A stretch of DNA of 64,000 nt from Dyadobacter beijingensis DSM 21582 (GTDB lineage Bacteria > Bacteroidota > Bacteroidia > Cytophagales > Spirosomataceae): positions 1,240,001-1,304,000 of the forward strand of contig NZ_KB907786.1 in NCBI RefSeq assembly GCF_000382205.1. Reading direction: 5' to 3'. This document shows, one piece after another, positions 36,315 through 56,909 of this stretch. The translations under genes and the position numbers were made by a program. Each line of letters starts with the position of its first letter. Position 1 is the stretch's first letter. The notes under the pieces are model-generated. The model saw only the letters and a list, made by a program, of their open reading frames with translations, made no database searches and was not told the origin of the DNA.

Positions 36315-38055
36315 CAAACTTTCGGAGGAACAGCAGAAAACTTCCACCATGAAGGGGCTCGGAAAGTTGCTGACGCTGATCTCCCACGAACGCGGAAACC
36401 TCACGCTGGCGATAGGGGCCATTACGCTCAATACGGCCGTGAATTTGTTCGGGCCGTACCTGATCGGCCATGCGATAGACCGGTACGTGGTGACGAAGCA
36501 GTTCCACGGGCTGCTCGTTTTTGGCACCATTCTGCTGGCGATGTATTTGCTTGGACTTGCTACGGCCTACCAGCAAACCAAGCTGATGGGCGGGGTAGGG
36601 CAACGCCTGCTCTTTACGCTCAGAAATGCCATTTTCAACAAGTTACAGCAACTGCCGGTCGCGTTTTTTAACCAAAACAAGGCCGGTGACCTCATTTCGC
36701 GCGTCAACAATGATACCGATAAATTGAACCAGTTTTTCTCGCAATCGCTCATGCAGTTTATCGGGAGCATTTTCACGATGCTGGGGGCGGGGATATTTTT
36801 ATTGGTGATTAATGTCAAACTCGGCGGGGCAGCGCTGGCACCGGCTGTGGTGATCCTGATATTTACATTGGTACTATCGCCCTGGGTGAAGTCGGCCAAC
36901 GCTAAAAACCTGAAAAGCACGGGTGCATTGAGCGCGGAAATCCAGGAGAGTTTGAACAATTTCAAAGTCGTGATCGCCTTCAACCGCCGGGATTATTTCC
37001 GGCAGCGCTTCCAGGTGGCAAACCTCGATAATTACCGCACGGCCATCCGCGCAGGTCTGGCGAACAACATTTTTCTGCCTACATATTCCTTTTTTTCCAA
37101 TGTGGCGCAGCTGGTGGTGCTCACCTACGGCATTTACCTGATCAGCGTCGGCGAATTCAGCGTGGGGTTGCTCGTGAGTTACCTGGCCTACGCGGTGAAT
37201 TTTTACAACCCGCTACGGCAGCTGGCGGCATTGTGGGCGAGTTTCCAGGTGGCAATGGCCGGCTGGGACCGCATATCGCAAATCCTCGCGCTCGAAACCG
37301 ACCTCGTGCCACTCGCCGGGACCACGCACGACGCGGACGGCGCGTTGCTCGAATTCCGCGATGTACGTTTCGGCTACGACAGCCGCGAAATCCTGCACCA
37401 GGTCAATTTCAAACTTGAACGCGGCAAAACCTACGCACTCATCGGCCCGACCGGCGGCGGCAAAACCACCACGGCCTCGCTCATCGCCCGCCTGTACGAC
37501 CCGCGCGAAGGTACCGTCCTGCTCGACGGGCGCGATATCCGCACGTACACGCCCGAAGAGCGTACGCAGAAGATCGGTTTCATTTTGCAGGAGCCGTTCC
37601 TGTTTTCGGGCACGATCCGTGATAATATCCTGTACGGCAACGAGCAGTTGAAGGAGTATTCCAATGCAAAGCTGGAAGAGGTGATCCGCAGCGCTAACCT
37701 GGGCGAGATCCTCGCATTGTTCGAAGACGGCCTCGAAACAAAGGTATCCGCTACCGGCGACAGCACGAGTCTGGGCCAGAAGCAGCTCATCGCATTCATG
37801 CGGGCCGTTTTGCGCAGCCCCGAGCTTCTGATCCTCGACGAAGCCACGGCTAATATCGACACGGTGACAGAAAAGCTCCTCGGCGACATCCTGAAACAGC
37901 TCCCCGCCTCCACCACGCAGGTCATCATCGCCCACCGCCTCAACACGATCGAAAACGCCGACGAAATCTTCTTCGTCAACTCCGGCGAAGTAAACCGCGC
38001 CGGCTCGCTCGACGACGCGATGACGATGTTGCTGAAGGGGAATAGGGCTAGCTAG
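36298..38055 (+). CDS. ABC exporter half-transporter, partner subunit
   Basis: A 585-residue half-transporter with six helices (residues 45-330) and an ATPase domain. Walker A GPTGGGKTT and Walker B LLILDEATANID are canonical, with the catalytic E515. Its signature reads TSLGQ (residues 490-494) instead of LSGGQ. In a heterodimer this weak signature would face the degenerate Walker site of the other subunit, so one ATP site is consistently inactive and the other intact. Translation is coupled through the 17-base overlap. The last 8 bases overlap the convergent last gene of the biosynthetic operon, suggesting but not proving export of its product. Confidence 0.93.
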   Translation: MKYDLNKLSEEQQKTSTMKGLGKLLTLISHERGNLTLAIGAITLNTAVNLFGPYLIGHAIDRYVVTKQFHGLLVFGTILLAMYLLGLATAYQQTKLMGGVGQRLLFTLRNAIFNKLQQLPVAFFNQNKAGDLISRVNNDTDKLNQFFSQSLMQFIGSIFTMLGAGIFLLVINVKLGGAALAPAVVILIFTLVLSPWVKSANAKNLKSTGALSAEIQESLNNFKVVIAFNRRDYFRQRFQVANLDNYRTAIRAGLANNIFLPTYSFFSNVAQLVVLTYGIYLISVGEFSVGLLVSYLAYAVNFYNPLRQLAALWASFQVAMAGWDRISQILALETDLVPLAGTTHDADGALLEFRDVRFGYDSREILHQVNFKLERGKTYALIGPTGGGKTTTASLIARLYDPREGTVLLDGRDIRTYTPEERTQKIGFILQEPFLFSGTIRDNILYGNEQLKEYSNAKLEEVIRSANLGEILALFEDGLETKVSATGDSTSLGQKQLIAFMRAVLRSPELLILDEATANIDTVTEKLLGDILKQLPASTTQVIIAHRLNTIENADEIFFVNSGEVNRAGSLDDAMTMLLKGNRAS

Positions 38056-39322: not shown

Positions 39323-39323
39323 C

Positions 39324-40604
39324 TCAATCCGGAATGGTGATGGGTATGGGTTCCAATAATTGCTTGCTGAGTAATGCCATCGCCATGTCGGCGATTTGCC
39401 GGCTATCCATTTTGGCGAGATAGCCCTCTTCGGAGTGAAATGCGAAATCCATGCGCCCGCCGAATGTCGATACCGACACCTTCGACGGATTCCCCATCGG
39501 AAAACGCGAAAGCGGGCTGCGTACTTCGGTAACCCGCAAAGGGCCGTAGGTATCATTTAATGGAATACGGCCTATGTTGGCAAATGCGAAATCATGTCCT
39601 CCCTTTCCCGCTCTGGCATACCGGATGCTGCGCGGGTACAGCGGTACGAGGTATTCGCTGAAAAACAATAGTTTAGGCGCGTCGGTTTGCCCAATTTGTT
39701 TGTAGAGCTTCTCTTTCAGCGCGTTTGCCTGCACCCGGAAGCTGCCGGTGTCACCCGGCGTTTTTAACCCCGCCATCGACGGGAATGCAAACAAATGGTC
39801 GCGCGCGATTTCCGGTAAAAAGCGGCGCATATCCACCGACGAGAACATCCGTCCGCTCGTGCGCACGCTGCGTGCCCGTTCGAATGCACGCATGAACGCT
39901 AGGATCAGCGCGGCGTTGAGGTTAATGTCCTTTTGCTTGCAGGCGGCCAGCAATGCAGCTGTTTCATCTTCGCCGAGCTTCCAGCGGATGGTGTAGAACC
40001 GGTCTTTGACGACGGGTTTCATCCACGAAACCGCCAGCAGGAACAGGCTGGTAATGCCTGCGACCGCCTTTCCGGCCAGCCGGTTAAAGGCATTGCGGCG
40101 AATGGCATCCGGTACCAGCCGCTCGGGCGAAAAGGCCGCGTAGGGCCGAAGCTCGGTGAGCGGGTCGGCGAGGCATTCGAGCAGCTCGCGCATGAGCGTG
40201 ATGATGGACGTGGCGTCACCAATGCAGTGGTGGCAGACGAACAGCAGGTCCGAAATGCCGTGAGAGCGCAGCCATACGACGCGCGCAAGCGGTGTGTGCG
40301 GTTTATCAAACGGGGTGCCCCATTCGGTGTCGGTTTCGGCTAGCCAGGTATTTTCAGCATGCCTCTCCGTGACCCGCAGCGGAATGGGTGCGATCCCATC
40401 GTCGGTGATGTACCAGGGAATCCCGTGGGCGTCGGCTTCTACCGCGACACGCAGGAATGGGTGTTTTTGCTGGATTTTCTGCAATGCATTACGCACGTCG
40501 CCCTCTTCGAAATGCCCGGTTACCTGAACGGGGAACACGACGTTCACGGGTGTGTCCGCGCCCGCGTACATGGAAGCTTCCAGGAAACCCATTCTTCTTT
40601 TCAT
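39324..40604 (-). CDS. Condensation/PapA-like acyltransferase 2
   Basis: A 426-residue paralogue of its two neighbours, with the catalytic motif HHCIGDA placing His and Asp at residues 126 and 130 exactly as in the others. Shared blocks include SSVDMRRFLPEIARDHLFAF, FANIGRIPLNDTYG and GNPSKVSVSTFGGRMDF. Its ATG overlaps the stop of the upstream acyltransferase by 4 bases, so translation is coupled. A separate acyl acceptor position or acyl donor from its paralogues is the simplest reason to keep it; this is inference. Confidence 0.85.
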   Translation of the reverse strand: MKRRMGFLEASMYAGADTPVNVVFPVQVTGHFEEGDVRNALQKIQQKHPFLRVAVEADAHGIPWYITDDGIAPIPLRVTERHAENTWLAETDTEWGTPFDKPHTPLARVVWLRSHGISDLLFVCHHCIGDATSIITLMRELLECLADPLTELRPYAAFSPERLVPDAIRRNAFNRLAGKAVAGITSLFLLAVSWMKPVVKDRFYTIRWKLGEDETAALLAACKQKDINLNAALILAFMRAFERARSVRTSGRMFSSVDMRRFLPEIARDHLFAFPSMAGLKTPGDTGSFRVQANALKEKLYKQIGQTDAPKLLFFSEYLVPLYPRSIRYARAGKGGHDFAFANIGRIPLNDTYGPLRVTEVRSPLSRFPMGNPSKVSVSTFGGRMDFAFHSEEGYLAKMDSRQIADMAMALLSKQLLEPIPITIPD

Positions 40605-41896
40605 AAACGCACGGGGTCGGGCTCGGTAACGGTTTCAAAGAGGATTTTCATCGCTATGTCGCGGATTTGCAGGGCCGTTTCGCGCGGGAGAAATTGCTCG
40701 TTGGAGACAAATGAAAAATCCATTTGTCCGCCGAAAGTGGTGGTAATGATCGTATTAGGGTTTGCGAACGGGCCGATGACCGTGGGGCTGTAAATCGTAT
40801 CGACCCTGAAATGCCGGTATTGGGCCGGAATATCGAGCTTGCCCATGTTGGAAAACATGAAGTCGTTGCCCACCTTGGCATAGGTCAGAAACCGGCGGAG
40901 CTTGTGCACAGAGCCGTGCGAAGCCTCCATGATCATCGTAAATTCATACGGGTTCAGCTTGGCCATTTGTGCGGAAACGTGTGTTTGTAATGTTTTCGCT
41001 TTTTCCCAGAAACTGTTTCCGATCGATTGCGCGAGCCCGATATTCAATGCAAGGCCGTAGGAAAAGAGCATATCGCGCTTCACTTCGGGCATGTACCGGC
41101 GAATATCCACCGGGCAGGTGGCCTTACCATGCGCCCCGGCGCCGTTGACAGTTTTGAATGCTTCCAGCAAGGCCAGCCCGATAGCGGTATTGACCGTCAC
41201 TCCTTCTTTTTTACAATAGCCAAAAAGGGCCTTCGACCGCTCCGCATCCAGTTTCCAGTTGATCAGATAGTCGGTTGCGCGCGGTGCCGGTTTTGTTTTG
41301 GTTGAAATAAACAATGAGCCCAGGGAAAGCCCGGCATGTACGAGGGCGGCAGATAGCCTTGCCTTGAAACGGTTTCGGCGGCTGTTCAGGATTTCGGCGG
41401 GTACCAGCTCGCTGATGCTTTGGAACGCGGGTGCTTTGCCGATGTCGGCCTGTGGGTCGTCGAGCAATGCCAGCAGATCGGTGAGGAGCGCCACGCCAGA
41501 GCCGCCGTCGCACATGCAATGGTGGAAGGCCATGATGAGGTCCGAGACCCGATCCGAGCGCAGCCAGGCAATGCGCAGCAGGGGGCCATTGGCTATATCA
41601 AACGACTTGCCGAGTTCATGAACGGTTTCATGGTTCCAATCCTCGTCGCCGGTCCTTTCTATGATCCGCAGCGGGATGGCGGGGCGGGCCATTGGCATGT
41701 GGAAATAGGGCCTTCCGTGCGCATCGATGCCGATTGCCGTACGCAGCATCGCGTACTTTTCCTGCAAGCGGGCCAATGCGGCCGTCAGTTGTCCGGCGTC
41801 GAGATCGCCAGTGATTTTCAGTGCATAAACGCCATGAAATGGCTCCGAACCGTCGCCGAACAGCACTCTTTCCAGGAAAAGCAGGTTGCGTTTCAT
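40601..41896 (-). CDS. Condensation/PapA-like acyltransferase 3
   Basis: A 431-residue member of the same trio. HHCMCDGGSG gives H126 and D130, and CPVDIRRYMPEVKRDMLFSY, FSNMGKLDIPAQYRHFRV and FANPNTIITTTFGGQMDFSF match the shared blocks. An intact catalytic His argues that it is active. No adenylation or peptidyl-carrier domains occur nearby, so a peptide-bond-forming role is unlikely and ester formation on a sugar or lipid hydroxyl is favoured. It starts 3 bases after the glycosyltransferase stop. Confidence 0.85.
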   Translation of the reverse strand: MKRNLLFLERVLFGDGSEPFHGVYALKITGDLDAGQLTAALARLQEKYAMLRTAIGIDAHGRPYFHMPMARPAIPLRIIERTGDEDWNHETVHELGKSFDIANGPLLRIAWLRSDRVSDLIMAFHHCMCDGGSGVALLTDLLALLDDPQADIGKAPAFQSISELVPAEILNSRRNRFKARLSAALVHAGLSLGSLFISTKTKPAPRATDYLINWKLDAERSKALFGYCKKEGVTVNTAIGLALLEAFKTVNGAGAHGKATCPVDIRRYMPEVKRDMLFSYGLALNIGLAQSIGNSFWEKAKTLQTHVSAQMAKLNPYEFTMIMEASHGSVHKLRRFLTYAKVGNDFMFSNMGKLDIPAQYRHFRVDTIYSPTVIGPFANPNTIITTTFGGQMDFSFVSNEQFLPRETALQIRDIAMKILFETVTEPDPVRL

Positions 41897-41899
41897 CGG

Positions 41900-43102
41900 T
41901 CAGGCATTTTCGGTGACGGTGTGACTGAGCGCGAAATCTTCCAGGAGCGAAACGGCCTTCGCATTGCCGCCGGCCCGGGTGAAGGTATCGCGGATATGCT
42001 GCGCCGCGAGGCGGTATTTCGGGTTTTCGAGCAGTTCCTGCATGGCGTTCTGCACATCGGCCACGCGCAGGCGCTTGTACCGGACTTTGATGCCGCAACC
42101 CGCATTTTCGATCAGCGCGGCGGTATGGAAATGGTCGTATGCAATGGGCGTGATAAGCATCGGCAGGCCGTTCATAAACGTGTCGTTCACCGTATTGAAC
42201 CCGCCGTGGCAGATCACCGCATCCATTTTGGGAATAATATCGGCCTGGGGCACAAAGCCTTGCACGATAAAGTTCTCCGGCCATTCGTCGATCACCGACG
42301 GGTCGGTAGCAGCCACGATCGTGATCGGCCCATTGCCGAATGCCTCGATGAGTTTGAGAAAAAATTCTTTGCGAATATCGACGAGCAAGGTGCCCAGCGA
42401 GACAAATACCTTCGGGCCGGTGGCTTTTTCAAGCTTTTTCCAGTCGAACGGCGTGTCGTTGGGGCGGCCTTTGACGGGGCCTACGAACTTCATATGCGGG
42501 TCGGGGTAGGGAAAACCGGCAAATTCCTTCGAAGTGAAGACGATGTTCATCTGGTGCGAATGGATCACGAACTCGTCGGTATAAATGCCGAGCCCGCGTT
42601 GCAGGCCCTGGATGAGGTTCTGCTGCCATTCAAATATTTTCGGCGCCGAATTAGCCGTGTCGCCCATCACGTCGGGCGGTACGGGCGTGGTGGTCACGCA
42701 CGGAATGCCTTTGAGGTGGGCCGCCAGCGCGCCAGCGAAGGTAATGCAGTCGTTAACGATCACATCCGGCTGGAAATCTTCGGTCACCCGCATCACGCCC
42801 GGTACCATGATCCGCGCGAAGGGGATGTAGGTTTCTTCCAAAGCGAGTTTCATCACTTCCGGGCCGGAAAGCGACGGGCCGTCGTCCTGGCGTTTGAGGA
42901 TGCGCGCGATTTCGTCCTGGTGTGGCGCGAGTTCGGCTTCGGGCAGAATGTAGCGCCCGCCGTCGGGAATGTGCCTGTCGGCGAGGGGAACGAGGCCTGT
43001 CCAGGCCACTTCATGGCCGTTGGCGAGCAGGCTGGCCCCCACGCTCAGGGTGGGGCTGATATGTCCGAAAAAAGGAGGTACTACAAATAGAAATCTAGCC
43101 AT
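41900..43102 (-). CDS. GT1-type glycosyltransferase B (UGT/MGT-like)
   Basis: A 400-residue GT-B-fold enzyme. The N-terminal acceptor half starts MARFLFVVPPFFGHISPTLS. The C-terminal donor half carries VFVSLGTLL, GFVPQADIIPKMDAVICHGG and FNTVNDTFMNGLPMLITPIA, the nucleotide-sugar signature of macrolide and carotenoid glycosyltransferases. The ATG at 43102 overlaps the previous gene's stop by 8 bases; the frame to 43216 is inside that gene. It would add one sugar to a hydroxyl or carboxyl of a lipophilic acceptor in the cytoplasm. Confidence 0.9.
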   Translation of the reverse strand: MARFLFVVPPFFGHISPTLSVGASLLANGHEVAWTGLVPLADRHIPDGGRYILPEAELAPHQDEIARILKRQDDGPSLSGPEVMKLALEETYIPFARIMVPGVMRVTEDFQPDVIVNDCITFAGALAAHLKGIPCVTTTPVPPDVMGDTANSAPKIFEWQQNLIQGLQRGLGIYTDEFVIHSHQMNIVFTSKEFAGFPYPDPHMKFVGPVKGRPNDTPFDWKKLEKATGPKVFVSLGTLLVDIRKEFFLKLIEAFGNGPITIVAATDPSVIDEWPENFIVQGFVPQADIIPKMDAVICHGGFNTVNDTFMNGLPMLITPIAYDHFHTAALIENAGCGIKVRYKRLRVADVQNAMQELLENPKYRLAAQHIRDTFTRAGGNAKAVSLLEDFALSHTVTENA

Positions 43103-44291
43103 TTTGAAAGACTTTAACGGGTAGCTGATCGAGCCATAATGCGGCGGTTTTAGTGCCTCCTGCCTCTTCGAACGATTGGCGGATGCGCTGTGCCGCGGCC
43201 CGGTAGCCCGGATCATTTAATATATCGCCGACCGCATTTTTAAGGTGCGGGGCTTTAAAACGGTTGAAATTGAGGCGCACGCCGCACCCGTTCGCCACCA
43301 CGCGCCCCGCCACGTGCGACTGGTCGTAGGCGATCGGGATCACTACGAGCGGCAGGCCGTTCGACAGCGCTTCGGAGACGGTATTATGGCCTGCGTGGCA
43401 GACGACACCGTCGAGATGGGGAAGCAGTTCGAGCTGGGGTATGCGCTGCTGTACCAGAAAATTGGCCGGCCAGCTTTCGAACAACGCCTCGTCGGACACC
43501 ACGACAACAAATACGTCCTCGCCGCCGAATGCTTCGATTACTTTTGAAAAGAAGTCCTTTTTGAACTGGTGATCGAACGTGGTACCGATGGAAATCAGGA
43601 TTTTGGGCACTGTCTGGCTTTTCAAGCGGCCCCAGTCGAAGGGAACGTCGCCAGCGCGGCGAGCAATCACCGGGCCCGGGAAGCGGTAGTGATGAGGCAG
43701 TTCCATTTCCCCGAAGAATGCACGGGAAGTGAACACGAGCGTCAGCAGCTCCGAAGTTGCCAGGCTCTTTTCGCCTCCGATACCGAGCTCTTGCTGAAGG
43801 GCGACAATCTGCCGCGTCTCCCATTCATGGATTTTTGGCAAATCTTCCATCATTTTAACGGCTGCGGGAGCGGTTACCGAGGTGGCGTAAGGTATATCCG
43901 CCAAATGCGCGGCCATAGCCCCTGCAAAAACCTGGTGGTCGTTGATGACCACGTCAGGTTGATACGCTTGCAGGATTTTCATAAGCCCGTCGAACATGTA
44001 GCGGTTAAGGGGAACTAGTACTTCTTCATACAGGAACTTAATGCTTTCGATACCGTAGACGTTCTTTTTGGTAATCATGTCCAGGTATTCGGCATTGGCC
44101 TTTTTTTCGGAATCGTCCTGGTCGTAGCGGATCACGAGCAGCCGGCCGCCTTCCGGCAGTTTCGCCTGCAACTGCTCGTCCAGGCTGATCCACGCCACCT
44201 CATGACCCAAAGCCAGCAGTTCCGCACCCACCGAGAGGGTCGGATTGATATGGCCTGTGAGCGGCGGGACGATGAAAGCGAATTTTGACAT
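43095..44291 (-). CDS. GT1-type glycosyltransferase A (UGT/MGT-like)
   Basis: A 398-residue paralogue of the next gene with the same opening (FIVPPLTGHINPTLSVGAEL) and donor motif (VCHAGHNTVSEALSNGLPLV, then PIAYDQ). The final Asp-Gln is the classic sugar-contact pair, whereas its partner has Asp-His, so the two may use different sugars. Carotenoid glucosyltransferases look similar, but no carotenoid genes are present and the operon context points to a polyketide or lipid acceptor. It lies 77 bases after the hydrolase gene, the widest gap in the operon. Confidence 0.9.
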   Translation of the reverse strand: MSKFAFIVPPLTGHINPTLSVGAELLALGHEVAWISLDEQLQAKLPEGGRLLVIRYDQDDSEKKANAEYLDMITKKNVYGIESIKFLYEEVLVPLNRYMFDGLMKILQAYQPDVVINDHQVFAGAMAAHLADIPYATSVTAPAAVKMMEDLPKIHEWETRQIVALQQELGIGGEKSLATSELLTLVFTSRAFFGEMELPHHYRFPGPVIARRAGDVPFDWGRLKSQTVPKILISIGTTFDHQFKKDFFSKVIEAFGGEDVFVVVVSDEALFESWPANFLVQQRIPQLELLPHLDGVVCHAGHNTVSEALSNGLPLVVIPIAYDQSHVAGRVVANGCGVRLNFNRFKAPHLKNAVGDILNDPGYRAAAQRIRQSFEEAGGTKTAALWLDQLPVKVFQNG

Positions 44292-44368
44292 TTTTCCGGG
44301 TCAGTATCAGATTATTGTGCGCTTCTGAATCGCGCCCGGAATGAAGTCCGGGGCAATAGGATTATTTT

Positions 44369-45193
44369 TCAATCGATTTCCGTTGGCCTCGGCCGACGGG
44401 CGCCGGGGTGTTTTTCGAGCAACCGCCGATGGCCCGGTTTGAGGAATTTTTCCAATTCCTTCCCAATCACTTCGGGTTGCTGAACGGGTACATTGTGATC
44501 GCCGGGGGCGAGGACGAGCTTGGCGTTCGGGATCCGGGAAGCCAGCGTGCGGCCCGAGGGTACGCAGTTGGAATCCTCGCCATAGATCAACAGCGTTTCG
44601 TGCGGGATGGCCGCTACCGACGGATCGTTGAAAAAGGCCTTTTCCGCCTCCATATCCGACCGGATGGAGGTTTCGTTGAACAAAAACTCATACATCCGGT
44701 GGTTCTTTTCCAACTGCCGTTTCCCTGCCAGCAGGCGCGTCGTGTCGGCGAAATTTTCGATATAGTGGATCAAAAATTCCTTGCTGTACGTATCGATGAT
44801 CGCGAGTGTTTCCTGCTCGCTCGGGTCGGGGCCCTCGATGATCGCCAGCTTGCCGACGCGCTCCGGGAAGCGTGCCGCCATTTTCAATGCCACCAGCCCG
44901 CCGTAGCTGTACCCGGCCAGGTGCGCCTTTTCAATGCCGAGCGCGTCCATCAGGTCGTGGAGGTCGTTGGTCATCGAGGTAAGGTCATAGCCGGTTTTCA
45001 CTTTTCCGCTCATGCCGTGGCCTTTCATATCGAACAGCACCACGCGAAAATGCTTCGCGAGCATGGGCGCGATGTTGAAATAATACACGGCCAGGTTACT
45101 GAACATCCCGTGCACCATGATGATCGTCTCACGGCCTCCGGGGTTCAGTTCCTGTACGTGCAGGCGGATGTTGGGCAGGTCTATTACTGGCAT
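44369..45193 (-). CDS. Alpha/beta hydrolase, probable chain-release thioesterase
   Basis: A 274-residue alpha/beta hydrolase. The oxyanion HGMF is at residues 28-31, and the nucleophile elbow GYSYGG has S96. The acid lies in LIYGEDSN (about residue 219) and the His in PGDHNVPVQQP (about 246). The synthases contain no thioesterase domain, so this enzyme is the best candidate to free the finished chain from its carrier. Its ATG overlaps the ACP stop by 10 bases, tying the two together. An ester hydrolase acting on the final product is the alternative. Confidence 0.82.
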   Translation of the reverse strand: MPVIDLPNIRLHVQELNPGGRETIIMVHGMFSNLAVYYFNIAPMLAKHFRVVLFDMKGHGMSGKVKTGYDLTSMTNDLHDLMDALGIEKAHLAGYSYGGLVALKMAARFPERVGKLAIIEGPDPSEQETLAIIDTYSKEFLIHYIENFADTTRLLAGKRQLEKNHRMYEFLFNETSIRSDMEAEKAFFNDPSVAAIPHETLLIYGEDSNCVPSGRTLASRIPNAKLVLAPGDHNVPVQQPEVIGKELEKFLKPGHRRLLEKHPGARRPRPTEID

Positions 45194-48400: not shown

Positions 48401-49802
48401 TCTCAGGACTTTTGTCCCAACCTTGCAGGACAACGTGCGCATTAATCCCGCCAAAGCCGAATGCATTCACACCTGCATACCTCGGCAGGCCCGATGCATT
48501 CCAGTCGGTCAATTGTCTTACCGGCTCAAACCGCGTATCGGCCAGTGCTTCCACAGGCTCCTCGCAATGCAGGGTAGGAGGCAGCTGCCCGTGGTACAAT
48601 GCAAGTACCGTCTTGATCACCCCTGCAATGCCCGCCGCAGGCATCGCGTGCCCGATCATCGATTTGACAGAGCCAATCCCCGCTTTGGTACCGCCCTGCC
48701 CGAACACCTTCGCCAGCGTTTCCAGCTCCGTTTTATCGCCGAGCGGCGTGCCGGTGCCATGTGCTTCGAGGTAGCCGATCTGGTCGGTGCCGATGCCGGC
48801 CATGTCCCAGGCCTGGCGAATGGCTTTCACCTGCCCGTGCACGGTCGGGCTCATGACGCTCGCCCCCGCGCCGTCGCTGCTCACGCCTACGCCCTGGATG
48901 ACGGCATAGATACGGTCGCCGTTGCCGATCGCGTCGGATAGTCTTTTTAATACCACAAAACCACAGCCCTCGCCGATCAGCAGCCCGTCGGCACGCTGGT
49001 CAAACGGTCTGATCTGCTGGTTTTTGGACAATGCACCCAGCTGGTGGAAAATGCTCCAGAATGGCGCATTCTGGCTGGCATGCACGCCGCCCGCGATCAT
49101 CATATCGGCGCGGCCGGAGTTGAGCTCCTGCACGGCATGGTCGATCGCGAGCAGCGAACTTGCGCACGCGGCGTCCAGTGTGTACGCGGTACCGCCGAGG
49201 TCCAGCCGGTTGGCCACGAGCGAAGCCGTCAGGTTAGGGATCAATCCCATGGCCGTATCCGCCGAAAAACGGCCTTTTTTCTGCTGAAATTCGGCTTTGA
49301 CTCTTTCGAGGTCTTCGTTTTTCAGGTCGGGGAGAATGCTTTTGAGCACTTCCACGATCTGCTGTCCGGTACGCACGATCTCGATCGCCCGCGTCGCGCC
49401 GGGGCCGGTATAGTTGCCTTTGCCGATGATAATGCCTGTTTTGGCAAAATTGGCGCCGTTGGTGAATGCGTGGGCATCCGCAAGCGCCTTGTGGGCGAGG
49501 CTGAGCGCGAGCAGCTGCTCCGGCTCGGTTCCCTCCACAGCCAGCGGCAATATCCCGAACCGGATCGGATCGAAATCGGCGTAATTGTCTATAAAGCCAC
49601 CGCGGCGGCAGTAAAAGCGGTCCACAGCCGTGGCTGCTCCGGCCTGTTTTTCGTCAAAAAACAAGTTGTCCATCCGGCTTTCCGGCACGGTTTCGATGGC
49701 GTCCACCCCGGTGCGGATGTTTTCCCAAAAGGCGTCAAGGTCGCCCGCGCCGGGGAATATCCCCGACATACCGATAACGGCAATCTCTGCATTTCTTTTC
49801 AT
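45471..49802 (-). CDS. Iterative type I synthase B: KS, AT-like, DH, phosphopantetheinyl transferase
   Basis: A 1443-residue multidomain enzyme. The KS (about 5-460) has a complete triad: C213 in DAACASS, H348 in EAHGTGT and H385 in IGHAMPAAG. The acyltransferase-like domain (about 555-860) has S628 in GHSLGE and H729 in FHSP. It opens FPGLDG, where acyltransferases have FPGQG, so the oxyanion Gln is missing. A linker with a five-residue repeat (PQDRL, PQERL, PQNRL) leads to a double-hotdog dehydratase (about 975-1265; H983 and D1137). The end is an Sfp-like phosphopantetheinyl transferase (about 1280-1443; VGIDIEE and WVAKEAFGK). The system thus carries its own ACP activator. It follows synthase A by 33 bases. 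Confidence 0.92.
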   Translation of the reverse strand: MKRNAEIAVIGMSGIFPGAGDLDAFWENIRTGVDAIETVPESRMDNLFFDEKQAGAATAVDRFYCRRGGFIDNYADFDPIRFGILPLAVEGTEPEQLLALSLAHKALADAHAFTNGANFAKTGIIIGKGNYTGPGATRAIEIVRTGQQIVEVLKSILPDLKNEDLERVKAEFQQKKGRFSADTAMGLIPNLTASLVANRLDLGGTAYTLDAACASSLLAIDHAVQELNSGRADMMIAGGVHASQNAPFWSIFHQLGALSKNQQIRPFDQRADGLLIGEGCGFVVLKRLSDAIGNGDRIYAVIQGVGVSSDGAGASVMSPTVHGQVKAIRQAWDMAGIGTDQIGYLEAHGTGTPLGDKTELETLAKVFGQGGTKAGIGSVKSMIGHAMPAAGIAGVIKTVLALYHGQLPPTLHCEEPVEALADTRFEPVRQLTDWNASGLPRYAGVNAFGFGGINAHVVLQGWDKSPENKTTNAVSINTNVPARDEVLLLARPTHEALLRALEKGEKETGTGHHRLAVFDPTPERMAKAIKIVSKNNVWRNKQDIWYTNEPLLANGGKTAFLFPGLDGLAGGEIDSVAAYFQLPRFEAGETGDEQSVFNTAMKLLEKSRILDSAIKKLGVVPDMNAGHSLGEWLAGRSSGLASETSVLQLLTRLNPELFEVKNTKFLAVGCGYDQLKPWLEGRKDIYLSIDNCPQQVILCGTIGAVEDFSAILRTHQIFHQQLPFQSGFHSPFVKDKLDRILDGLDTMEFQPTAIPLWSATTLDIYPESFGEIRSLSVEHLVKPVRFRELIEKLYAQDVRMFVQVGSGGLVGFVDDTLKGKPYSAITSNVPIRGGLQQLQRVMAALFVEGKNVDHTFMGIENQPPVQRRPMKLQLGSPFVTELESLKKITFTQPKKELALDDIASPVMRALSANLDEMALVQSEIAELVRNRPFGATGAQTSAQPAAVKPPQDRLPQERLPQNRLAFKKQLDLSLQNSPWLIDHSLLKQKPGWHCVEDMDPVIPMTMIFEVFGDIAREQAPELRVQKIMAIKVFQWMNVVEPFRETVTGEWKSPDRVYLDLDKYANAEVLLSETKGVPETNRYEIGESLGINITPEQIYRENMFHGPAYQGIREVITVGTNGITGLISGDAGKGSLLDNAGQLFGLWLQLTLTKDRIAFPVKINEVEFYGEMEDQQGIFECTCRLTELTEDTATADFILKRDGTVWSIIRGWQNRRLEIDDKLWNVSMAPLQNILSDEVAPGVFLFRNAYQRVVSWDFILKRYFNQPEKRHQRGLMPNKKKEWMISRVAAKDATRMLLLRTRHEACFPIEFEIRSDEAGKPFLDGPMTGGVHISLAHKNLEAVAIASDKGPVGIDIEEIQPRSAGFTEIVFTPAELALLAGRDQDEWMTRCWVAKEAFGKMLGKGLMGNPKAYQIEEIKENALRIQNTWINTIKHFNYIIGWTN
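46915..46959. repeat. 15-bp tandem repeat in the AT-DH linker
   Basis: Three units (46915-46929, 46930-46944, 46945-46959) follow the pattern CGNTCCTGCGGCAGG with a few changes, the third being the most diverged. Each unit keeps frame and encodes PQxRL, so copy-number change would only alter linker length. Confidence 0.7.
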
Positions 49803-49835
49803 GATGGTCGCAATTTGTTCAACGCCTTCCGCCGC

Positions 49836-52800
49836 TTATTCAGCCATGATCAGTACCTGGCTTTCCGTGCCGTATTTGAGTTCATTGACAAATGTTTCCA
49901 TGCCGTCTCCAAGCGGGATCAGCGGGATGCCGCGGCGTTCGTATTCCCTTTCGAGCGAGGGCGACACCATGCCGGTGCCCTTCCACGGGCCCCAGTTAAT
50001 GGCCGTTACCTTGCCTTTGATCTTCTTGCGCAATTCCCAGGCATATTTATCGAGTACGCTGTTGGCGGCCGCATAATCGGTTTGGCCGCGGCTGCCATAT
50101 ACGGAGGCGACGCTTGAAAACAGGGTCACGAACTGAACGTCGTCTTTCAAATGCTCGGCCAAAACCCGCAGCGGCGTCACTTTCGTGGACATCACGCGTT
50201 CGAACGATTCGGGTGTTTTCTGATGGAACAGCTTGTCTTCCAGCAGCCCCGCGCCGTGAATGACGCCGTCGATGCGGCCAAACCGGCTGTACAGCCCTTC
50301 CACCATCGCGATCAGCGCTTCTTCGTCGCGCAAATCCATGGAATGGTAGCTTACCGTCGAACCATTGCCTTCCAAAGCGGAAATGGTACCGAGGATCTGG
50401 TTGGCCTTGTGTATTTCTTCCGTTTTCTTCTCGATCTCGGCAGGCGATTTGAGCTGGCCCGACGCGATGAGGCGTCTGCGGATATCTTCCCTGTTTTTCA
50501 GACCGGCCAGCGACTGGTCGGCGTGCTGGCGCGGGTCGGCGGAGCGGCCGACGAGCACGTAATGGCAGGGGTAGTCTTTCGAAAACCGCACAATCAGTTC
50601 CGAAGTAATGCCCTGTGCGCCGCCTAATGCCAGGATCACCGATTTTTTGTCGAGGTGGATATCCGGGTTGGCGCCGGTAACGATTTCGGAGCGGACCAGT
50701 TCCACCGTTTGTCGCTGGCTGCCCTCATATACCACTTCGCAAGGCTCGTCGGTATGCAGGATTTCATTGAAAGTAATGCCCGCCACCTGTGCGGCCGGAA
50801 GCTGGGAGGTAATGCTCACCAGCCTGCATTTGGTTTGGTCGTATTCCTTATCGAGGCTTTTCAACAGTCCCGCATAACCCTGGAAATGCCGCAGCAGCTT
50901 CACGTCGGTGTCTTTGTCGAGCGCGCTTTGGGTGTCGGAAATGGTGTAAACCCATTTCACTTTGCTGAAATCCAGCTTTTTAATGAGCGAAAACGATTCG
51001 ATGATCGTCGGTTTCAGGCGTGAAGTGAAAATGTTCAGGATAATGAGTCCGTCGAACCCTTGCAGGGAATCTTCGGTGGAAATGATGCTTACTTCTGCAC
51101 CATTTTGCTCAAAAATCGTCTTGATGGCCGTTGCTACACCGCCCGCGTCGTCGGTTACCGCGAATCGTTTGCCTGCCAATGCGGCGGGGTTAAGCGCCGG
51201 GATGGCCGAGGGTGCCAGTTCGAAGCGGAGGCGCGAGAGTTTTTCGTTTAAAACCGCTTTCGGGGCAGGCGCCACATGCAGGCTTTCCGCTTTTTGAATA
51301 GAATCCTGCGCACCGCCCAATGCTTCCGACAGCCAGTCGATCAGCCCGTTCAGCGTTTTAATGGATGCGAGTTTTTCCACCAGCTCCTCGCCGCGTTCCT
51401 GGTAAATCCGGATCAGTCCGTCGATATTGTTTTTCAGCTCACCGATGATCTCCATGCGTTTGATGGAGTCGATGCTCAGGTCCGCTTCCAGATCCATATC
51501 CATGCCCAGCATTTCCTGCGGATAGCCGGTTTTGGCGCTTACCGCTTCCAGCAGCACCGATTTAATGCGGCTTTCCGGCCATTCTTCGATCACGCCGTCC
51601 TGGGTGATCGAGAGCTTGCTCAAGGGCACGCCGGCGGTTTGTGGTGCAGGAGAAACGGTCGCAGCAACCTGCTGCTGGTGTTCGGTGATCCAGTTGACGA
51701 GCAAGTTCAAGGTCTTGATCGCCGCCAGCTGTTCGATCACCGCCTCTTCATTTTGCTGGCCGGCATCGAACCCGCCCAGCTGTTTGCGGAGCTCGCCGAT
51801 GATTTCCATGCGTTTGATGGAATCGATGCTCAGGTCGGCTTCGAGGTCCATATCCATACCGAGCATTTCCTGCGGATAGCCCGTTTTATCGCTGATTACC
51901 TGCATCACCAACGCCTTCACGTCCACCACGACCGGTTTGGCGGCCGCCTGGGCCGCCACCGCTTTTTCGATCACGATCGGAACGGGTGCGGGTGCATTGG
52001 CCGCGAGTCCGCTCAATGCCGGTTCTTCAATTTCAATATTCCTCGCAGGCGGCACCGATTGGCCCAGGTAACCCAGTACCACATCGCGCTGCGCCTGAAT
52101 GAGGTATTTCACGCTATTGAGGTATTCATGAACCACACGTTCGGCTTCGGCACCGGCCGCCGGGGTCCCAATCGTCGGCTGCTGGAATGCGGCCAGTTTC
52201 AGCGGCTCGGTCACCGGCAATGCGCCGTGTTCGGGCAATTTTCCGTGGAGTGGAAGCGCCATCTGGCCGTCTACGAGCCAGGTAGTAATGCTTTTCCGGT
52301 ATTGTTCCGGCTTGTCGAGGTCGAGCACGCGCACGTCGCGGTCCTCGAATAGTTTGTTAAAATCAATGCTGCGACCGGTGGCGATGTAGCCCGCCAGCGC
52401 GTGCAGGAGCTGCGTAATGCCGGTCTGGTCCTTGTCTTCGGTATAAATGCAGACCTCATCTTTGCCCAAAATCGATTTGGTAAGCCCCGTAAGCACCTTG
52501 CCCGGGCCTACTTCCACGAATACGCGGGCGCCGTCCTCATACATTTGCACCACCTCTTCCGAAAACCGCACCGGGCGTACCAGGTGGTCGGAAAGGCGCT
52601 CCTTGATATCCTCCGGCGAAGCGGGGTAGGGGGCGGCAGTCGTATTCGACCACACCGTCAATGCAGGTTCGGCGAATGCGACATCCTGCATTTCAGCAGT
52701 ATAAAGTGCTTTCGAGCCGGCCAGCAGCGGGCTGTGGAATGCACAGGCCACTTCGAGCTGGCGGAACGAAATTTTCAGTTCGGTGAGTCTGGCCGTCAGC

Positions 52801-55800
52801 TCGGCGACGGCCGGTGTAGTTCCGGCCAGAACCCATTGCCGCGGCGAGTTGTGGTTTACCGGGTAAATGTGGTTGATCTCCGAAACAATGCGCGTCAGCT
52901 CGTCTTCGGGACAGTTCACGGCTACCATCGCTCCATTGTCGTCACCGATGGCATCGAGGATCGATTTGGCGCGTTTTTCGCTGAGCGGCACAAGCTGGTT
53001 GGCCTCAAACACCCCTGCAAAGCACAATGCAGGCAGCTCGCCATAGCTGTGGCCGGCCACCATGTCCGGGTGTATGCCAAGGTCGCGGAGCAGTTCGGCG
53101 ATCGCCAGGTCCACGACGCCCAGCAGCGGCTGTGCCAGTCGGGTATCCTTGATTTTCTCCTTTTGTGCCTTTGCCGATGCTTCATTGAAAACAGCATCCG
53201 GGAAAATGATCTGCTGGTAGGCAGGATGCTTTCTCAATAACTTCCGCATTGCCGGGAATGCCACAAACAAGTCGCGCGCCATATCTACACGCTGGCTGCC
53301 CTGCCCGGGGAACATGAATGCTACTTTACCTTCGATGTTTTTGGTATAGTAAATACCCCCATATGCCGCCAAGCTCTGCCTGGTGTTCGCCGATGTTGCC
53401 AGGCTCTGCCCGGTTTCCAGAACATTATTTAGTTTAGCCAGCGCATCCCCGTGATCCCCAGCCACAATGCAAACCTGCACAGCCTTTTCGCAATACAAAT
53501 GCAAACTATGAGCCACATCGCGCAGCGAAACCGCGTCATTTTCGAGAATATCGTGGGCAACTTTCACCAGTTTCAAAGCTTCTTCCAGCGTATCCCCGCG
53601 GAAGACGAGCAGCTCGGCAGGCCATGCTTTCACCGATTTCTTCGGCTTGTTCCCGGAAGCGCTCTCGATGACCGCATGGAAATTGGTACCCCCGAAACCG
53701 AATGCGCTGATCCCCGCCACGCGGCGGCTGTCGGTCCATAGCGCAGGTTTGGTCTGGAATGCGAACGGGCTCGTTTCCGGATTATAGTAAGTGTTTGGCG
53801 TTTTCAGGTTGATGGTCGGCGGTTTGATGCCGTGGTATACGGCCAGCGTGGCCTTGATGAGCCCGGCGAGGCCTGCGGCGCATTTGGTGTGGCCGATCTG
53901 CGTTTTCACGGAGCCGAGGTGTGTCTGGCTGGTCAATGCGCCGGAGGCCAGCATCATTTCCGTTAAAGCGCTGAGCTCGGTCTTGTCGCCCACGACGGTA
54001 CCGGTACCATGCGCTTCCACGAGGCCCAGTTCGGCCGGCGAAATACCTGCCTGATCGTAAGCGCGTTCCAATGCTTTTACCTGCCCCGATTTTCGCGGAG
54101 CGGTGAGTCCCAGGCTCTTACCGTCGCTGGATCCGCCCACACCTTTGATGACGGCGTAAATCGTATCACCATCGCGCAGGGCGTCGTCCTCGCGTTTCAG
54201 CACGACCATCGCCACGCCTTCCCCGAGCGCGATGCCATCGGCCTCGGAGTCGAAAGTGGCGCAGCGTCCCTTGCGGGAGAGCGCGTGGGTGCTGGAAAAC
54301 ATCAGGTAATCGTTAATGCCGTTGTGCAGGTCGGCGCCGCCGGCGAGTACCATTTCGGAGCGGCCGAGCACCAGTTCCTGGCACGCGAGATCAATGGCCG
54401 CCAGGGAAGAGGCGCAGGCGGCATCTACCGTGTAATTGCGGCCGCCGAGGTTCAGTCGGTTGGTAATGCGGCCGGAAATCACGTTCGCCAGCACGCCGGG
54501 GAACGAGTCTTCCGTCAGTTTCGGCAATGCGTCGTCGAGTTCTTTGGGTATTTCACCAAAAAATTGTGTGAAAAGCGAGCGGAAGCCGTAGTTGTTGGCC
54601 AGGTCGTTGCCGCCCTCTGCGCCGATGATCACCGATACATTGTCGCGGTTGTTATCCGCGCCGTAGCCGGCGTTGTCGAGCGCCTGCTTCGCTACGAGCA
54701 GGCTCAGCAGCTGGGTAGGGTCGATGGCCGCCAGCGATTGCGGCGGAATGCCGAATTCCAGCGGGTCGAAGTCGATTTTCGGAATAAAACCGCCCCATTT
54801 CGAATGTGATTTACTGCCATCGGAAACGGTCGGGTCGTAGTATAACGCCTTGTTCCAGCGATCGTCCGGCACCTCCGTCACCCAGTCTTTGCCGGCCAGG
54901 ATGTTGCCCCAGAACTCCTCGATGTTGCGGGCGCCGGGGTAAATGCAAGCCATGCCGACAATGGCGACATTCAATGCCTTCTTCTTCCTTCTCGGCGCCT
55001 TCGGCAGCGCCGCTTTTTCGATGTATGCATAGTGTCCCGTCGCCACGTTTTCGTGCAGCCCGCGCATCGTCACGACCTTGTTGAGCATAGCCGCAGCCTG
55101 CCCGATCATGTACATGCCGCGGCTCATTTGTTCGTCCGGGGCGATGGTTACGAGGTTATCTTTTTGTCTTTCAATGCCTTTGGCGGCAATGCGGAGCCGG
55201 CCCACATTGAGTTTTTCCAACTCGGCCCAAATCTCCTTCTTATCCATGCCTGCCGCTTCCATACGGGCCTTTTCCGCATTGAAATCGGCGGCGAAAGGCG
55301 ATTCGAGGCAGCGGGTTTCGTGGCCCGGTGCCGTTTCGAGCAGTACGGTTTCGGTATGTTCCAATGCCTGCTCCTGGAATTGCGGCAGAATGGCGCCGGT
55401 AGCTACGGCCTCCTGCGTGTACAGGTAAGCGGTGCCCATGAGCACGCCCACCTTTACGCCGCGTGCGGCCAATGGCGCGGCCATCACGGAGATCATCGCC
55501 GCGGAAAAATCGTCATGAATGCCGCCTGCGAAGAACACTTCAAGCTGCTCGGTTTGCTCTTCCAGTAACAGCCGGTTGATCTGTTTTTCCCAAAGCACGA
55601 AGCTGGACAGCGGGCCCACATGGCCCCCGCATTCACGGCCTTCGAAGATGAACCGTTTGGCCCCTTCTTTCAAAAACATATCGAGCAGCGGCGCCGATGG
55701 TACGTGCAGGAATGTCTTGATGCCCAGCTTTTCCAATGGCTTCGCCTGCGACGGACGCCCCCCTGCGATGAGTACCACGGGCGGTTTTTCTTCGGTAATG

Positions 55801-56909
55801 TAGGAGAGCTGCTCGTCGCGCAACGCCTCGTCGGCGAAGCCGAGAATGCCCACGCCCCAGGGCTTATCGCCTGCCAGTGCGCGCGTTTCGCGGATGAGCC
55901 CGCGGGCCTTGTCGCCTTTCAGGAGCGACAGGGCTACGAACGGCAATGCACCGGCGTTCGCTACGGCCTGGGCAAATGCCGGCACGTCGCTCACGCGCGT
56001 CATGGGCCCCTGTGCAATAGGATATTGCGTGCCGAGCGCCTGTGCGAGGGCATTGTCTGCTGCCAGCGGGTTCAGGTTTTTGGCCTGCCGCAAATGCCCG
56101 AACATGGCTTCCTTAACCGCGAAAACGAGCCGGGGGAGCTTTTTGTATTGGCGGACGAGGTCGGTGCCGATGGCAATGTCCTGCCCGAGCGGAATGTATC
56201 CTTGATCGAGGTCGATCGTGTGCAGAAATCCGTCCAGATGATCGCGCACGGGTTGAGCGGGCAATGCGGGCGAGTTCGGCCTAACAAGCACACGAAAACC
56301 GTCGATCACGCGGGTTTCATTGCCGTTCAGCTTCTCGCTCACCGCTTTCAGGGAGGCAGGGGCAGAACATTCGGGGAAGGGGAGCAGCTGGCTGTCGAGC
56401 ACCACGCCGCGTCCGCCGAGCGCGGTGATGGCGGCGGCATTATGCACGCCGATACCGCCCTGCACCCATACCGGGATGTCGCTAACCTCCCTCATTATAC
56501 GTTGAAACAAAATGAAGGAAGAATCGCTGCTTACGACCCCGGCCCCTTCGTTTCCCTTCGCGATAATCCCCGCCGCACCGGCGGCTTTGGCGAGCTTCGC
56601 TTCGGCTACACTGGTAACCTGGATAATGATTTGAAGCGTGTCTGCAGGTTTAGGAAAAGTCAGGCCATATGGTAGGATTGCTAGTGTAACTTGTTCAGGT
56701 AATGCAATGTTAAGCGGTGTGTTGTCGGCGAAGCATACGCCAAAAGCTTTCTTGGTTTTCGACGCCACCTTTTGCAGAGCGTTCGTAGCGATTTGTTGAT
56801 CTCTTCCGAGGTGGATTACTGGGAAAGCTCCGGCTTCCGACAGCGCTAAGGCCAGGGTTGCATCCGGTCGCTCCATCGGAGTAACACCGATCATTTCCAG
56901 GTTTTTCAT
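49836..56909 (-). CDS. Iterative type I synthase A: PfaD-like ER, KS, AT, ACP-ACP, KR
   Basis: A 2357-residue megasynthase, first gene of the operon. Residues 1-200 are a half-barrel resembling nitronate monooxygenase. Residues 285-570 form a PfaD-type flavin enoyl reductase (ECGGHVGP near 426, then FFAGGIHDDF). The KS (645-1085) has C832, H967 and H1007. The AT (1195-1500) has FPGQGSQ, S1288 in GHSYGE and H1392. Two ACPs (S1697 and S1815) share a long identical segment around LSIDSIKRMEIIGEL, the style of PUFA, enediyne and heterocyst-glycolipid synthases. The KR (2085-2350) has GGAQGIT and Y2279. With the dehydratase of synthase B the system can fully reduce each added unit. The ER is normally a separate protein in PUFA systems, so its N-terminal fusion is notable. 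No release domain is present. Confidence 0.93.
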   Translation of the reverse strand: MKNLEMIGVTPMERPDATLALALSEAGAFPVIHLGRDQQIATNALQKVASKTKKAFGVCFADNTPLNIALPEQVTLAILPYGLTFPKPADTLQIIIQVTSVAEAKLAKAAGAAGIIAKGNEGAGVVSSDSSFILFQRIMREVSDIPVWVQGGIGVHNAAAITALGGRGVVLDSQLLPFPECSAPASLKAVSEKLNGNETRVIDGFRVLVRPNSPALPAQPVRDHLDGFLHTIDLDQGYIPLGQDIAIGTDLVRQYKKLPRLVFAVKEAMFGHLRQAKNLNPLAADNALAQALGTQYPIAQGPMTRVSDVPAFAQAVANAGALPFVALSLLKGDKARGLIRETRALAGDKPWGVGILGFADEALRDEQLSYITEEKPPVVLIAGGRPSQAKPLEKLGIKTFLHVPSAPLLDMFLKEGAKRFIFEGRECGGHVGPLSSFVLWEKQINRLLLEEQTEQLEVFFAGGIHDDFSAAMISVMAAPLAARGVKVGVLMGTAYLYTQEAVATGAILPQFQEQALEHTETVLLETAPGHETRCLESPFAADFNAEKARMEAAGMDKKEIWAELEKLNVGRLRIAAKGIERQKDNLVTIAPDEQMSRGMYMIGQAAAMLNKVVTMRGLHENVATGHYAYIEKAALPKAPRRKKKALNVAIVGMACIYPGARNIEEFWGNILAGKDWVTEVPDDRWNKALYYDPTVSDGSKSHSKWGGFIPKIDFDPLEFGIPPQSLAAIDPTQLLSLLVAKQALDNAGYGADNNRDNVSVIIGAEGGNDLANNYGFRSLFTQFFGEIPKELDDALPKLTEDSFPGVLANVISGRITNRLNLGGRNYTVDAACASSLAAIDLACQELVLGRSEMVLAGGADLHNGINDYLMFSSTHALSRKGRCATFDSEADGIALGEGVAMVVLKREDDALRDGDTIYAVIKGVGGSSDGKSLGLTAPRKSGQVKALERAYDQAGISPAELGLVEAHGTGTVVGDKTELSALTEMMLASGALTSQTHLGSVKTQIGHTKCAAGLAGLIKATLAVYHGIKPPTINLKTPNTYYNPETSPFAFQTKPALWTDSRRVAGISAFGFGGTNFHAVIESASGNKPKKSVKAWPAELLVFRGDTLEEALKLVKVAHDILENDAVSLRDVAHSLHLYCEKAVQVCIVAGDHGDALAKLNNVLETGQSLATSANTRQSLAAYGGIYYTKNIEGKVAFMFPGQGSQRVDMARDLFVAFPAMRKLLRKHPAYQQIIFPDAVFNEASAKAQKEKIKDTRLAQPLLGVVDLAIAELLRDLGIHPDMVAGHSYGELPALCFAGVFEANQLVPLSEKRAKSILDAIGDDNGAMVAVNCPEDELTRIVSEINHIYPVNHNSPRQWVLAGTTPAVAELTARLTELKISFRQLEVACAFHSPLLAGSKALYTAEMQDVAFAEPALTVWSNTTAAPYPASPEDIKERLSDHLVRPVRFSEEVVQMYEDGARVFVEVGPGKVLTGLTKSILGKDEVCIYTEDKDQTGITQLLHALAGYIATGRSIDFNKLFEDRDVRVLDLDKPEQYRKSITTWLVDGQMALPLHGKLPEHGALPVTEPLKLAAFQQPTIGTPAAGAEAERVVHEYLNSVKYLIQAQRDVVLGYLGQSVPPARNIEIEEPALSGLAANAPAPVPIVIEKAVAAQAAAKPVVVDVKALVMQVISDKTGYPQEMLGMDMDLEADLSIDSIKRMEIIGELRKQLGGFDAGQQNEEAVIEQLAAIKTLNLLVNWITEHQQQVAATVSPAPQTAGVPLSKLSITQDGVIEEWPESRIKSVLLEAVSAKTGYPQEMLGMDMDLEADLSIDSIKRMEIIGELKNNIDGLIRIYQERGEELVEKLASIKTLNGLIDWLSEALGGAQDSIQKAESLHVAPAPKAVLNEKLSRLRFELAPSAIPALNPAALAGKRFAVTDDAGGVATAIKTIFEQNGAEVSIISTEDSLQGFDGLIILNIFTSRLKPTIIESFSLIKKLDFSKVKWVYTISDTQSALDKDTDVKLLRHFQGYAGLLKSLDKEYDQTKCRLVSITSQLPAAQVAGITFNEILHTDEPCEVVYEGSQRQTVELVRSEIVTGANPDIHLDKKSVILALGGAQGITSELIVRFSKDYPCHYVLVGRSADPRQHADQSLAGLKNREDIRRRLIASGQLKSPAEIEKKTEEIHKANQILGTISALEGNGSTVSYHSMDLRDEEALIAMVEGLYSRFGRIDGVIHGAGLLEDKLFHQKTPESFERVMSTKVTPLRVLAEHLKDDVQFVTLFSSVASVYGSRGQTDYAAANSVLDKYAWELRKKIKGKVTAINWGPWKGTGMVSPSLEREYERRGIPLIPLGDGMETFVNELKYGTESQVLIMAE
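51442..51887. repeat. Direct DNA repeat encoding the duplicated ACPs
   Basis: Two 92-base copies (51442-51533 and 51796-51887) begin CCGATGAT and encode the same ACP core around LGMDMDLEADLSIDSIKR. They differ at scattered, mainly silent positions, so the duplication is not recent but the protein has been held constant. Confidence 0.75.

Follow-up and report, generated by a model that had tools for sequence, protein, structure and literature searches.

Gene Content and Organization of the Operon

The 64-kb window, which denotes here the whole stretch of DNA that was analysed from a genome of 7.38 Mb, carries nine minus-strand genes of its reading-frame list in the interval 38048-56909, as listed in Table 1. 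The eight junctions of this operon measure 33, -13, -10, 77, -8, 3, -4 and 1 bases, with the starts of GT2 and of the third acyltransferase set at 43102 and 39322 by hand count on the translations, and both the one-strand layout and the junction lengths of the original prediction were reproduced exactly. Judging by this spacing, the genes are presumably co-transcribed. A Pfam scan of eight of the nine products detected NMO (two stretches), KS, acyltransferase, PP-binding (two stretches) and KR in synthase A; KS, acyltransferase and an ACPS-type phosphopantetheinyl transferase (PPTase) in synthase B; and Abhydrolase, two UDPGT-type glycosyltransferases (GTs) and three condensation-superfamily proteins among the remaining products, with the acyl carrier protein (ACP) recognised by a separate profile match. 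These matches agree with the predicted set of two synthases, a free ACP, a hydrolase, two GTs and three PapA-like proteins (Pap1 to Pap3).

The terminator-like hairpin that separates synthase A from its upstream neighbour is not listed by a simple terminator scan, and its position is as expected for the end of the neighbouring transcript. Two ABC transporter genes (34569-38055) converge on the 3' end of the operon. Within 10-kb flanks of the best 80 of 124 related loci described below, the first gene of this pair adjoins the cluster in six of the nine Dyadobacter loci and was seen beside it in no other genus, except for a 26%-identical ABC protein in locus L077, and the pair was rejected as an exporter for the cluster and is not counted among its parts. 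Elsewhere in the window, an RND efflux set (OEP, AcrB-like and HlyD-like) with an adjoining TetR regulator and an L,D-transpeptidase occupies 17140-25581, a flavohemoglobin-type protein composed of a globin and FAD- and NAD-binding domains lies at 7232-8434, and a large FG-GAP repeat protein (2063-6295) and a receptor-L-domain/leucine-rich-repeat-like protein (9100-10782) both end in a secretion-system C-terminal sorting domain.

Table 1. Features of the operon and its upstream border, with positions in the window.
Feature	Position	Strand	Remarks
Terminator-like hairpin	57150..57215	-	between upstream gene and synthase A; MFE -39.1 kcal/mol, z -9.3
Synthase A, 2357 aa	49836..56909	-	two NMO/FabK-type ER barrels, KS, malonyl AT, ACP, ACP, KR
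A, ER barrel 1 (~residues 1-230)	56220..56909	-	NMO-like; no His at catalytic position, 79/79 rows
A, ER barrel 2 (288-617)	55059..56048	-	FabK-like; catalytic His430 invariant, 79/79 rows
A, KS	53661..54968	-	C832, H967, H1007
A, malonyl AT	52467..53318	-	S1288, H1392, R1313; GQGSQ in 79/79 rows
A, tandem ACPs	51417..51908	-	S1697, S1815
A, KR	49980..50633	-	S2266, Y2279, N2283
Synthase B, 1443 aa	45471..49802	-	KS, AT without malonyl signature, putative DH, PPTase
B, KS	48414..49787	-	C213, H348, H385; triad intact in 81/81 rows
B, AT-like domain	47247..48146	-	S628 and H729 in 81/81 rows; GQGSQ in 0/81
B, dehydratase-like region	46083..46889	-	H983, D1137, 81/81 rows
B, 4'-phosphopantetheinyl transferase domain	45510..45755	-	Pfam match, motif check
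Free acyl carrier protein, 99 aa	45184..45483	-	Ser51, invariant in 81/81 rows (best 80 of 124 loci plus window)
Alpha/beta hydrolase	44369..45193	-	S96, H233
Glycosyltransferase GT1 (UDPGT/MGT type)	43095..44291	-	in 52/80 loci (best 80 of 124)
Glycosyltransferase GT2 (UDPGT/MGT type)	41900..43102	-	in 79/80 loci (best 80 of 124); remaining one stops at contig edge
PapA-like acyltransferase Pap1	40601..41896	-	HHCMCDG
PapA-like acyltransferase Pap2	39324..40604	-	HHCIGDA; only in 9 Dyadobacter loci among best 80 of 124
PapA-like acyltransferase Pap3	38048..39322	-	PHCVCDG; first His gone, catalytic His present

Domains and Catalytic Residues of the Synthases

One scan of genome contigs recovered 124 relatives of synthase B, of which the best 80 were kept and their loci fetched. 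The alignment of B comprises 81 rows (the best 80 of 124 loci plus the window), and that of A 79 rows, as L033 and L104, in which A is split, were left out. All tested catalytic residues of A are invariant in 79/79 rows. The whole of A scores 1055.2 bits against the PfaA-type model TIGR02813 (cut-off 1010.1) and thus has the PfaA-type KS-MAT-ACP-KR order, while a piecewise genome search with the same model yielded no piece over the cut-off in any of six genomes (0/6), the window's best reaching 704.5. The reductase, originally labelled PfaD, proved to be a tandem FabK/NMO-like didomain: the PfaD-family model TIGR02814 gave no match at E 1e-3 in the ER region of A and none in the window's genome, and the same search matched 3 of 14 control genomes, one of them over the cut-off. 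Barrel 1 also matches nitronate monooxygenase/FabK chains. The His loop of barrel 2 reads GGH, and the equivalent loop of barrel 1 contains His in 0/79 orthologue rows; the residue is also missing in the window, L114 and four plasmid-borne relatives (6/6), and a His-less first barrel recurs in Streptomyces, Beijerinckia, Methylosinus and Rhodobacteraceae relatives. Barrel 1 would be a pseudo-enzyme, a fused pseudo-enoyl-reductase that has apparently lost catalysis.

The tested catalytic residues of B are invariant in 80-81 of 81 rows. Its AT shows a three-residue alignment gap at the place where the MAT of A has an Arg kept in 79/79 rows, a position which we take to be the malonyl-binding residue; R652, one residue past the gap, is Arg in 8/81 rows, the window included. 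Because GQGSQ is missing throughout and the malonyl Arg falls into the gap, the AT of B probably does not load malonyl, the loss of the Arg being read from the alignment gap itself. The dehydratase (DH) region of B has no Pfam hit; a profile search weakly matches it to PKS dehydratases (CurK, E 0.049), and the DH-PPTase part can be aligned at 26% identity (E 7e-37) with a PPTase-bearing protein of 629 aa encoded in the Beijerinckia Type P cluster. Together with the invariant H983/D1137, these matches suggest that B carries a DH, so that of the reducing set predicted as complete, KR and ER are detected by profile and the DH is a candidate.

The predicted dedicated PPTase was confirmed as an ACPS-type domain at the C-terminus of B. 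In the 2011 typing of secondary-lipid synthases, of which sections are drawn upon here, the motif P1b' (hShxH) with P1a x(G/D)xP characterises the PPTases of Types M-T, and P1b those of Types A-L (PMC3098273). The PPTase of the window has P1a AGKP and P1b' ISLAH; across the alignment, P1b' occurs in 80/81 rows, P1a, in a pattern with F, Y, A, E, K or W as the next residue, in 79/81, P1b in 0/81 and the P0 motif of Types A-L in 3/81.

Hydrolase and Tailoring Enzymes

In the hydrolase, a probable release enzyme, the Ser of GxSxG and the His are invariant in 80/80 rows (best 80 of 124 loci), whereas the acid position as tested varies, with D in 32/80 rows, so the acid may lie elsewhere or the column was wrongly chosen. 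The two GTs, which share 40% identity, score 62.6 and 69.4 bits against PF00201 (UDPGT, cut-off 19.5), placing both in the GT1 superfamily, and do not reach the cut-off of the MGT subfamily (192 and 172 vs 260); the best solved matches of GT2 are YjiC-type glycosyltransferases.

All three Pap proteins lie above the cut-off of PF00668 (Condensation), and Pap3 also above that of PapA_C. The catalytic His and Asp of HHxxxD are invariant, as in PapA acyltransferases, with the His kept in 83/83 rows of Pap1, 10/10 of Pap2 and 80/80 of Pap3 (best 80 of 124 loci, window included); the first position of HHxxxDG in Pap3 is P in 72/80 and A in 8/80 rows, the second His being kept. None reaches the PapA5 family cut-off of 396 bits (39.1, 31.3 and 23.1). 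Among solved structures, Pap1 matches a phthiocerol dimycocerosyl transferase best, along residues 18-424 of its 431. The three proteins are only 34-37% identical to each other, and they therefore probably differ in the site or the acyl group that they serve.

A hydrophobic small membrane protein of ~160-200 aa, termed F0, follows Pap3 in 68 of the best 80 of 124 loci (for example L086:20208-20738), and one member that was scanned has no Pfam family. In a 69th locus, that of Filimonas zeae (L087:17723-19654), Pap3 and F0 share one reading frame, suggesting a joint function of F0 and the acyltransferase. F0 was not seen in the window, in the nine Dyadobacter loci, in L045 or in L078, whose contig ends first, and a search of the window's genome, run without a positive control, did not find it; F0 as a universal part of the cluster was thus ruled out by its absence from the window, the Dyadobacter loci and L045.

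Distribution and Inheritance of the Cluster

The best 80 of 124 loci span ten named Bacteroidota genera, with Pedobacter (22), Chryseobacterium (19), Dyadobacter (9), Chitinophaga (9), Mucilaginibacter (7), Sphingobacterium (6) and Flavobacterium (3) followed by five other names with one locus each. The check for a conserved neighbourhood that had been proposed gave a clear result: the order A-B-ACP-hydrolase is present in 80/80 of these loci, with B identities of 57-89%, and GT and acyltransferase genes come next in nearly all of them, in the usual order (GT1)-GT2-Pap1-(Pap2)-Pap3 with few exceptions. The A-B-ACP-hydrolase order stays the same while the flanking genes vary between genera, an agreement that goes beyond chance. 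Frames of at least 70% length were counted in 80 loci (best 80 of 124) for B and ACP, in 79 for hydrolase, GT2 and Pap3, in 78 for A, in 77 for Pap1 and in 52 for GT1. The exceptions are A in pieces in L033 and L104, a contig of L078 that stops inside the hydrolase, the lack of Pap1 in L087 and short Pap1-like frames in L063; in L031 the reading frame of the hydrolase starts upstream of ACP, which affects the printed order only. The loci nearest to synthase B (72-89% identity) are from Dyadobacter, and in the tree of B the window groups within the Dyadobacter clade, its nearest neighbour being Dyadobacter sp. SG02 (91%).

The distribution of the cluster is patchy. With the window's genome counted in each sample, 9 of 37 genomes from the genus have full-length B, and its C-terminus occurs in 4 of 395 genomes of the phylum and 2 of 291 of the order. 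Uniqueness of the cluster was ruled out by these phylum and order samples and by the ten genera above.

Among the best 80 of 124 loci, 28 are without GT1, and they coincide one for one with the 28 rows that make up the Chryseobacterium-Flavobacterium-Sphingobacterium clade, L078 being counted among them though its contig ends before the GT1 point. Sphingobacterium B groups in the tree with Chryseobacterium and Flavobacterium, and vertical inheritance for Sphingobacterium was rejected (p-AU 0.0002) when the 11 Sphingobacteriaceae rows of a 29-row subset were held together, a test group picked after inspection of the tree; both trees come from quick searches and contain some long branches. It is thus the gene tree, and not family membership, that the gene content mirrors, a pattern pointing to transfer of the cluster in one piece.

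A Core Shared Outside Bacteroidota

Relatives outside Bacteroidota were taken from matches in a plasmid collection. Two Streptomyces plasmids (L110 and L113) carry A-B-ACP-hydrolase-GT in the same order and then a methyltransferase, with identities to the window of 45% (A), 38% (B), 25% (ACP), 31% (hydrolase) and 37% (GT1); as their ACP and hydrolase accessions are identical, they count as about one case. Their annotated stretch, from incomplete plasmid gene tables, has no Pap and a single GT, and these clusters are possibly of Type M. A divergent Cytophagales genome has A-B-ACP-hydrolase-GT2-GT1-Pap-hydrolase. The recurrence in Streptomyces and this genome suggests a core that forms a single unit and a tail of variable tailoring genes. 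In Beijerinckia and Methylosinus, A and a PPTase-bearing protein are accompanied by synthase-III-type genes (two and one, respectively), which occupy the place of the KS-AT of B, the ACP and the hydrolase of the window. Set against the Streptomyces and Cytophagales loci, this comparison suggests that A and the DH-PPTase make the chain, and that the KS-AT of B, the ACP, the hydrolase and the GT would form a glycolipid module, with Pap, the second GT, the methyltransferase and F0 as apparent lineage-specific additions.

We tentatively propose, as a possibility short of an even chance, that the core is an old glycolipid assembly unit common to Bacteroidota and Streptomyces, in which the KS and the non-malonyl AT of B and the free ACP would act as a hand-over module from an ars-like synthase to a hydrolase/GT pair, with variable sugars, acyls and methyls added, the products forming an unnamed class of envelope glycolipids. 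The interest of the locus lies in this core common to two phyla and in a tandem ER of which one barrel is apparently past catalysis.

Proposed Product and Alternative Readings

The product class originally predicted, an acylated glycolipid, fits every gene, the tested active sites and the Streptomyces core, and we retain it as the rather probable reading: a saturated long chain would be built, passed to a dedicated ACP, released, glycosylated and acylated two or three times. Synthase A and the DH of B would elongate malonyl units with full reduction to a largely saturated chain of ~C20-C26, a length and saturation borrowed by analogy from relatives at ~40% identity, and the PPTase on B would serve the carrier domains of A. 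The second KS and the non-malonyl AT, on B, would act last and shift the finished chain onto the free ACP, perhaps with a last condensation step, after which an oxygen would remain at C3; this role for the KS-AT and the ACP is suggested by position and lost motifs. The hydrolase would free the chain from its carrier, GT2 and then, where present, GT1 would add one or two sugars, and the PapA-like enzymes would place ester groups on free hydroxyls, with probably two such steps in most lineages and three in Dyadobacter. The product would likely be located in the cell envelope.

Among the other readings, the one that survives best, though we regard it as unlikely, is that the GTs use a different acceptor to build a sugar or glycoside, to the hydroxyls of which the Paps move the chains of the synthase from the ACP, in which case the long chain would be an ester group and not the aglycone. 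Mycobacterial sulfolipid and polyacyltrehalose are precedents for such polyacylated sugars, and PapA5/Mas exemplifies PapA enzymes that accept chains straight from the carriers of a synthase. The solved match of Pap1, the mutual divergence of the Paps, with its probable difference in site or acyl group, and the free ACP gene in all 80 loci (best 80 of 124) would suit this arrangement, but on the Streptomyces plasmids, whose annotated stretch has a methyltransferase and lacks a Pap, the core seems able to do without these enzymes, and the conserved hydrolase suggests that a free chain is released. Glycosylation of a polyunsaturated fatty acid or polyene made by the synthase is considerably less probable: the whole of A does pass the PfaA-type model, but its ER keeps an invariant catalytic His and falls outside the PfaD family, a single DH-like region can be made out as against the DH2 carried by Type A PfaC (PMC3098273), the PPTase has P1b' of Types M-T and not P1b of Types A-L, and behenic acid exemplifies the chains made by the Type P relative. 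Least credible of all is a glycolipopeptide whose condensation-like proteins form amide bonds as in NRPS-type systems, because, although all three exceed the Condensation cut-off, there is no adenylation domain among the eight Pfam-scanned products, the proteins are ~430 aa each, Pap3 has PapA_C and the best solved match of Pap1 is an acyltransferase.

For the acylated glycolipid that we favour, as for the orthologous clusters, searches of open-licence PMC papers brought up no product, nor did they bring up a description of a hand-over module of the KS and AT of B and the free ACP. To this extent the claim that no known system combines all these elements holds within the literature covered; the rarity it implied does not, given the same order in 80/80 loci (best 80 of 124) and a Type N synthase named in 2011.

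Comparison with Known Systems

The mycobacterial PapA parallel of the original prediction is borne out at the level of the Condensation superfamily, the HxxxD motif and the solved match of Pap1, and fails at that of the family, as the Paps fall far below the PapA5 cut-off and Pap3 is without the first His in 80/80 rows (best 80 of 124 loci). With the PUFA synthases (Types A/B), the window shares the PfaA-type KS-MAT-ACP-KR and differs in the missing PfaD-family enoyl reductase. The hgl system (Type F) likewise links a Pfa-like synthase to a glycosyltransferase, HglT (PMC11804610), and its hglC (KS-CLF-AT) is without the DH of pfaC (PMC3098273), whereas B of the window reads KS-AT-DH-PPTase and no thioester-reductase-type domain was hit by Pfam in eight products of the operon; the window's genome also gave no match to a PfaD-family ER. 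HglE, suggested as the parallel, turned out to be more distant than Type P (ars), which provides the best plasmid-collection matches outside Streptomyces.

Type P appears to be the closest relative found with an assigned product class. It has the same architecture of A with tandem ER barrels (39.5% over 1689 aa to the Beijerinckia protein) and a PPTase-bearing protein that matches the C-terminus of B. Its chains are taken to be saturated, after the example of behenic acid. They serve as the alkyl chains of phenolic lipids, for example behenic acid, C22 (PMC3098273, Table 1), with C23-C25 fatty acids reported for ArsA of Azotobacter (PMC4824345) and chains of C22-C26 for Azotobacter Type P (PMC13291983), although phenolic lipids are reported not to have been found in Beijerinckia itself (PMC3098273). 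Type P hands its chain to type III polyketide synthases (PMC3098273, PMC4824345); in L109, two genes annotated as 3-oxoacyl-ACP synthase III C-terminal are read as such synthases after PMC3098273. The window operon has no type III polyketide synthase gene between A and the PPTase, and in their place a second KS-AT, the free ACP, the hydrolase, the GTs and the Paps.

As far as it could be tested, the cluster corresponds to the Type N secondary-lipid synthase locus of Shulse and Allen, which was named in 2011 from Chitinophaga pinensis DSM 2588 and Chryseobacterium gleum ATCC 35910 (PMC3098273). An orthologous locus is present in C. pinensis YS-16 (L104), where the scored matches, covering 16 of 19 candidates, contain no second long PfaA-like locus, and orthologous loci also occur in Chryseobacterium (19 of the best 80 of 124); C. 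gleum is not among these 80, so the orthology rests on YS-16 and other Chryseobacterium. The PPTase of the window carries P1a and P1b' and lacks P1b, as expected for this type. In the sections concerned, the Type N product was left unassigned in 2011, with the suggestion that it is perhaps structural in Chitinophaga resting bodies, and these sections treat the synthase only, the words 'glycosyl' and 'glycosyltransferase' occurring 0 times in the main text (PMC3098273). As that paper is silent on glycosyl genes, the conserved sugar and acyl tail is an addition made here, and it gives a testable prediction for the Type N product, namely a glycolipid whose long chain is saturated and which bears one or two sugars together with two or three acyls, for which lineage differences are predicted by the lack of GT1 in the 28-row Chryseobacterium-Flavobacterium-Sphingobacterium clade and by the third Pap in Dyadobacter.
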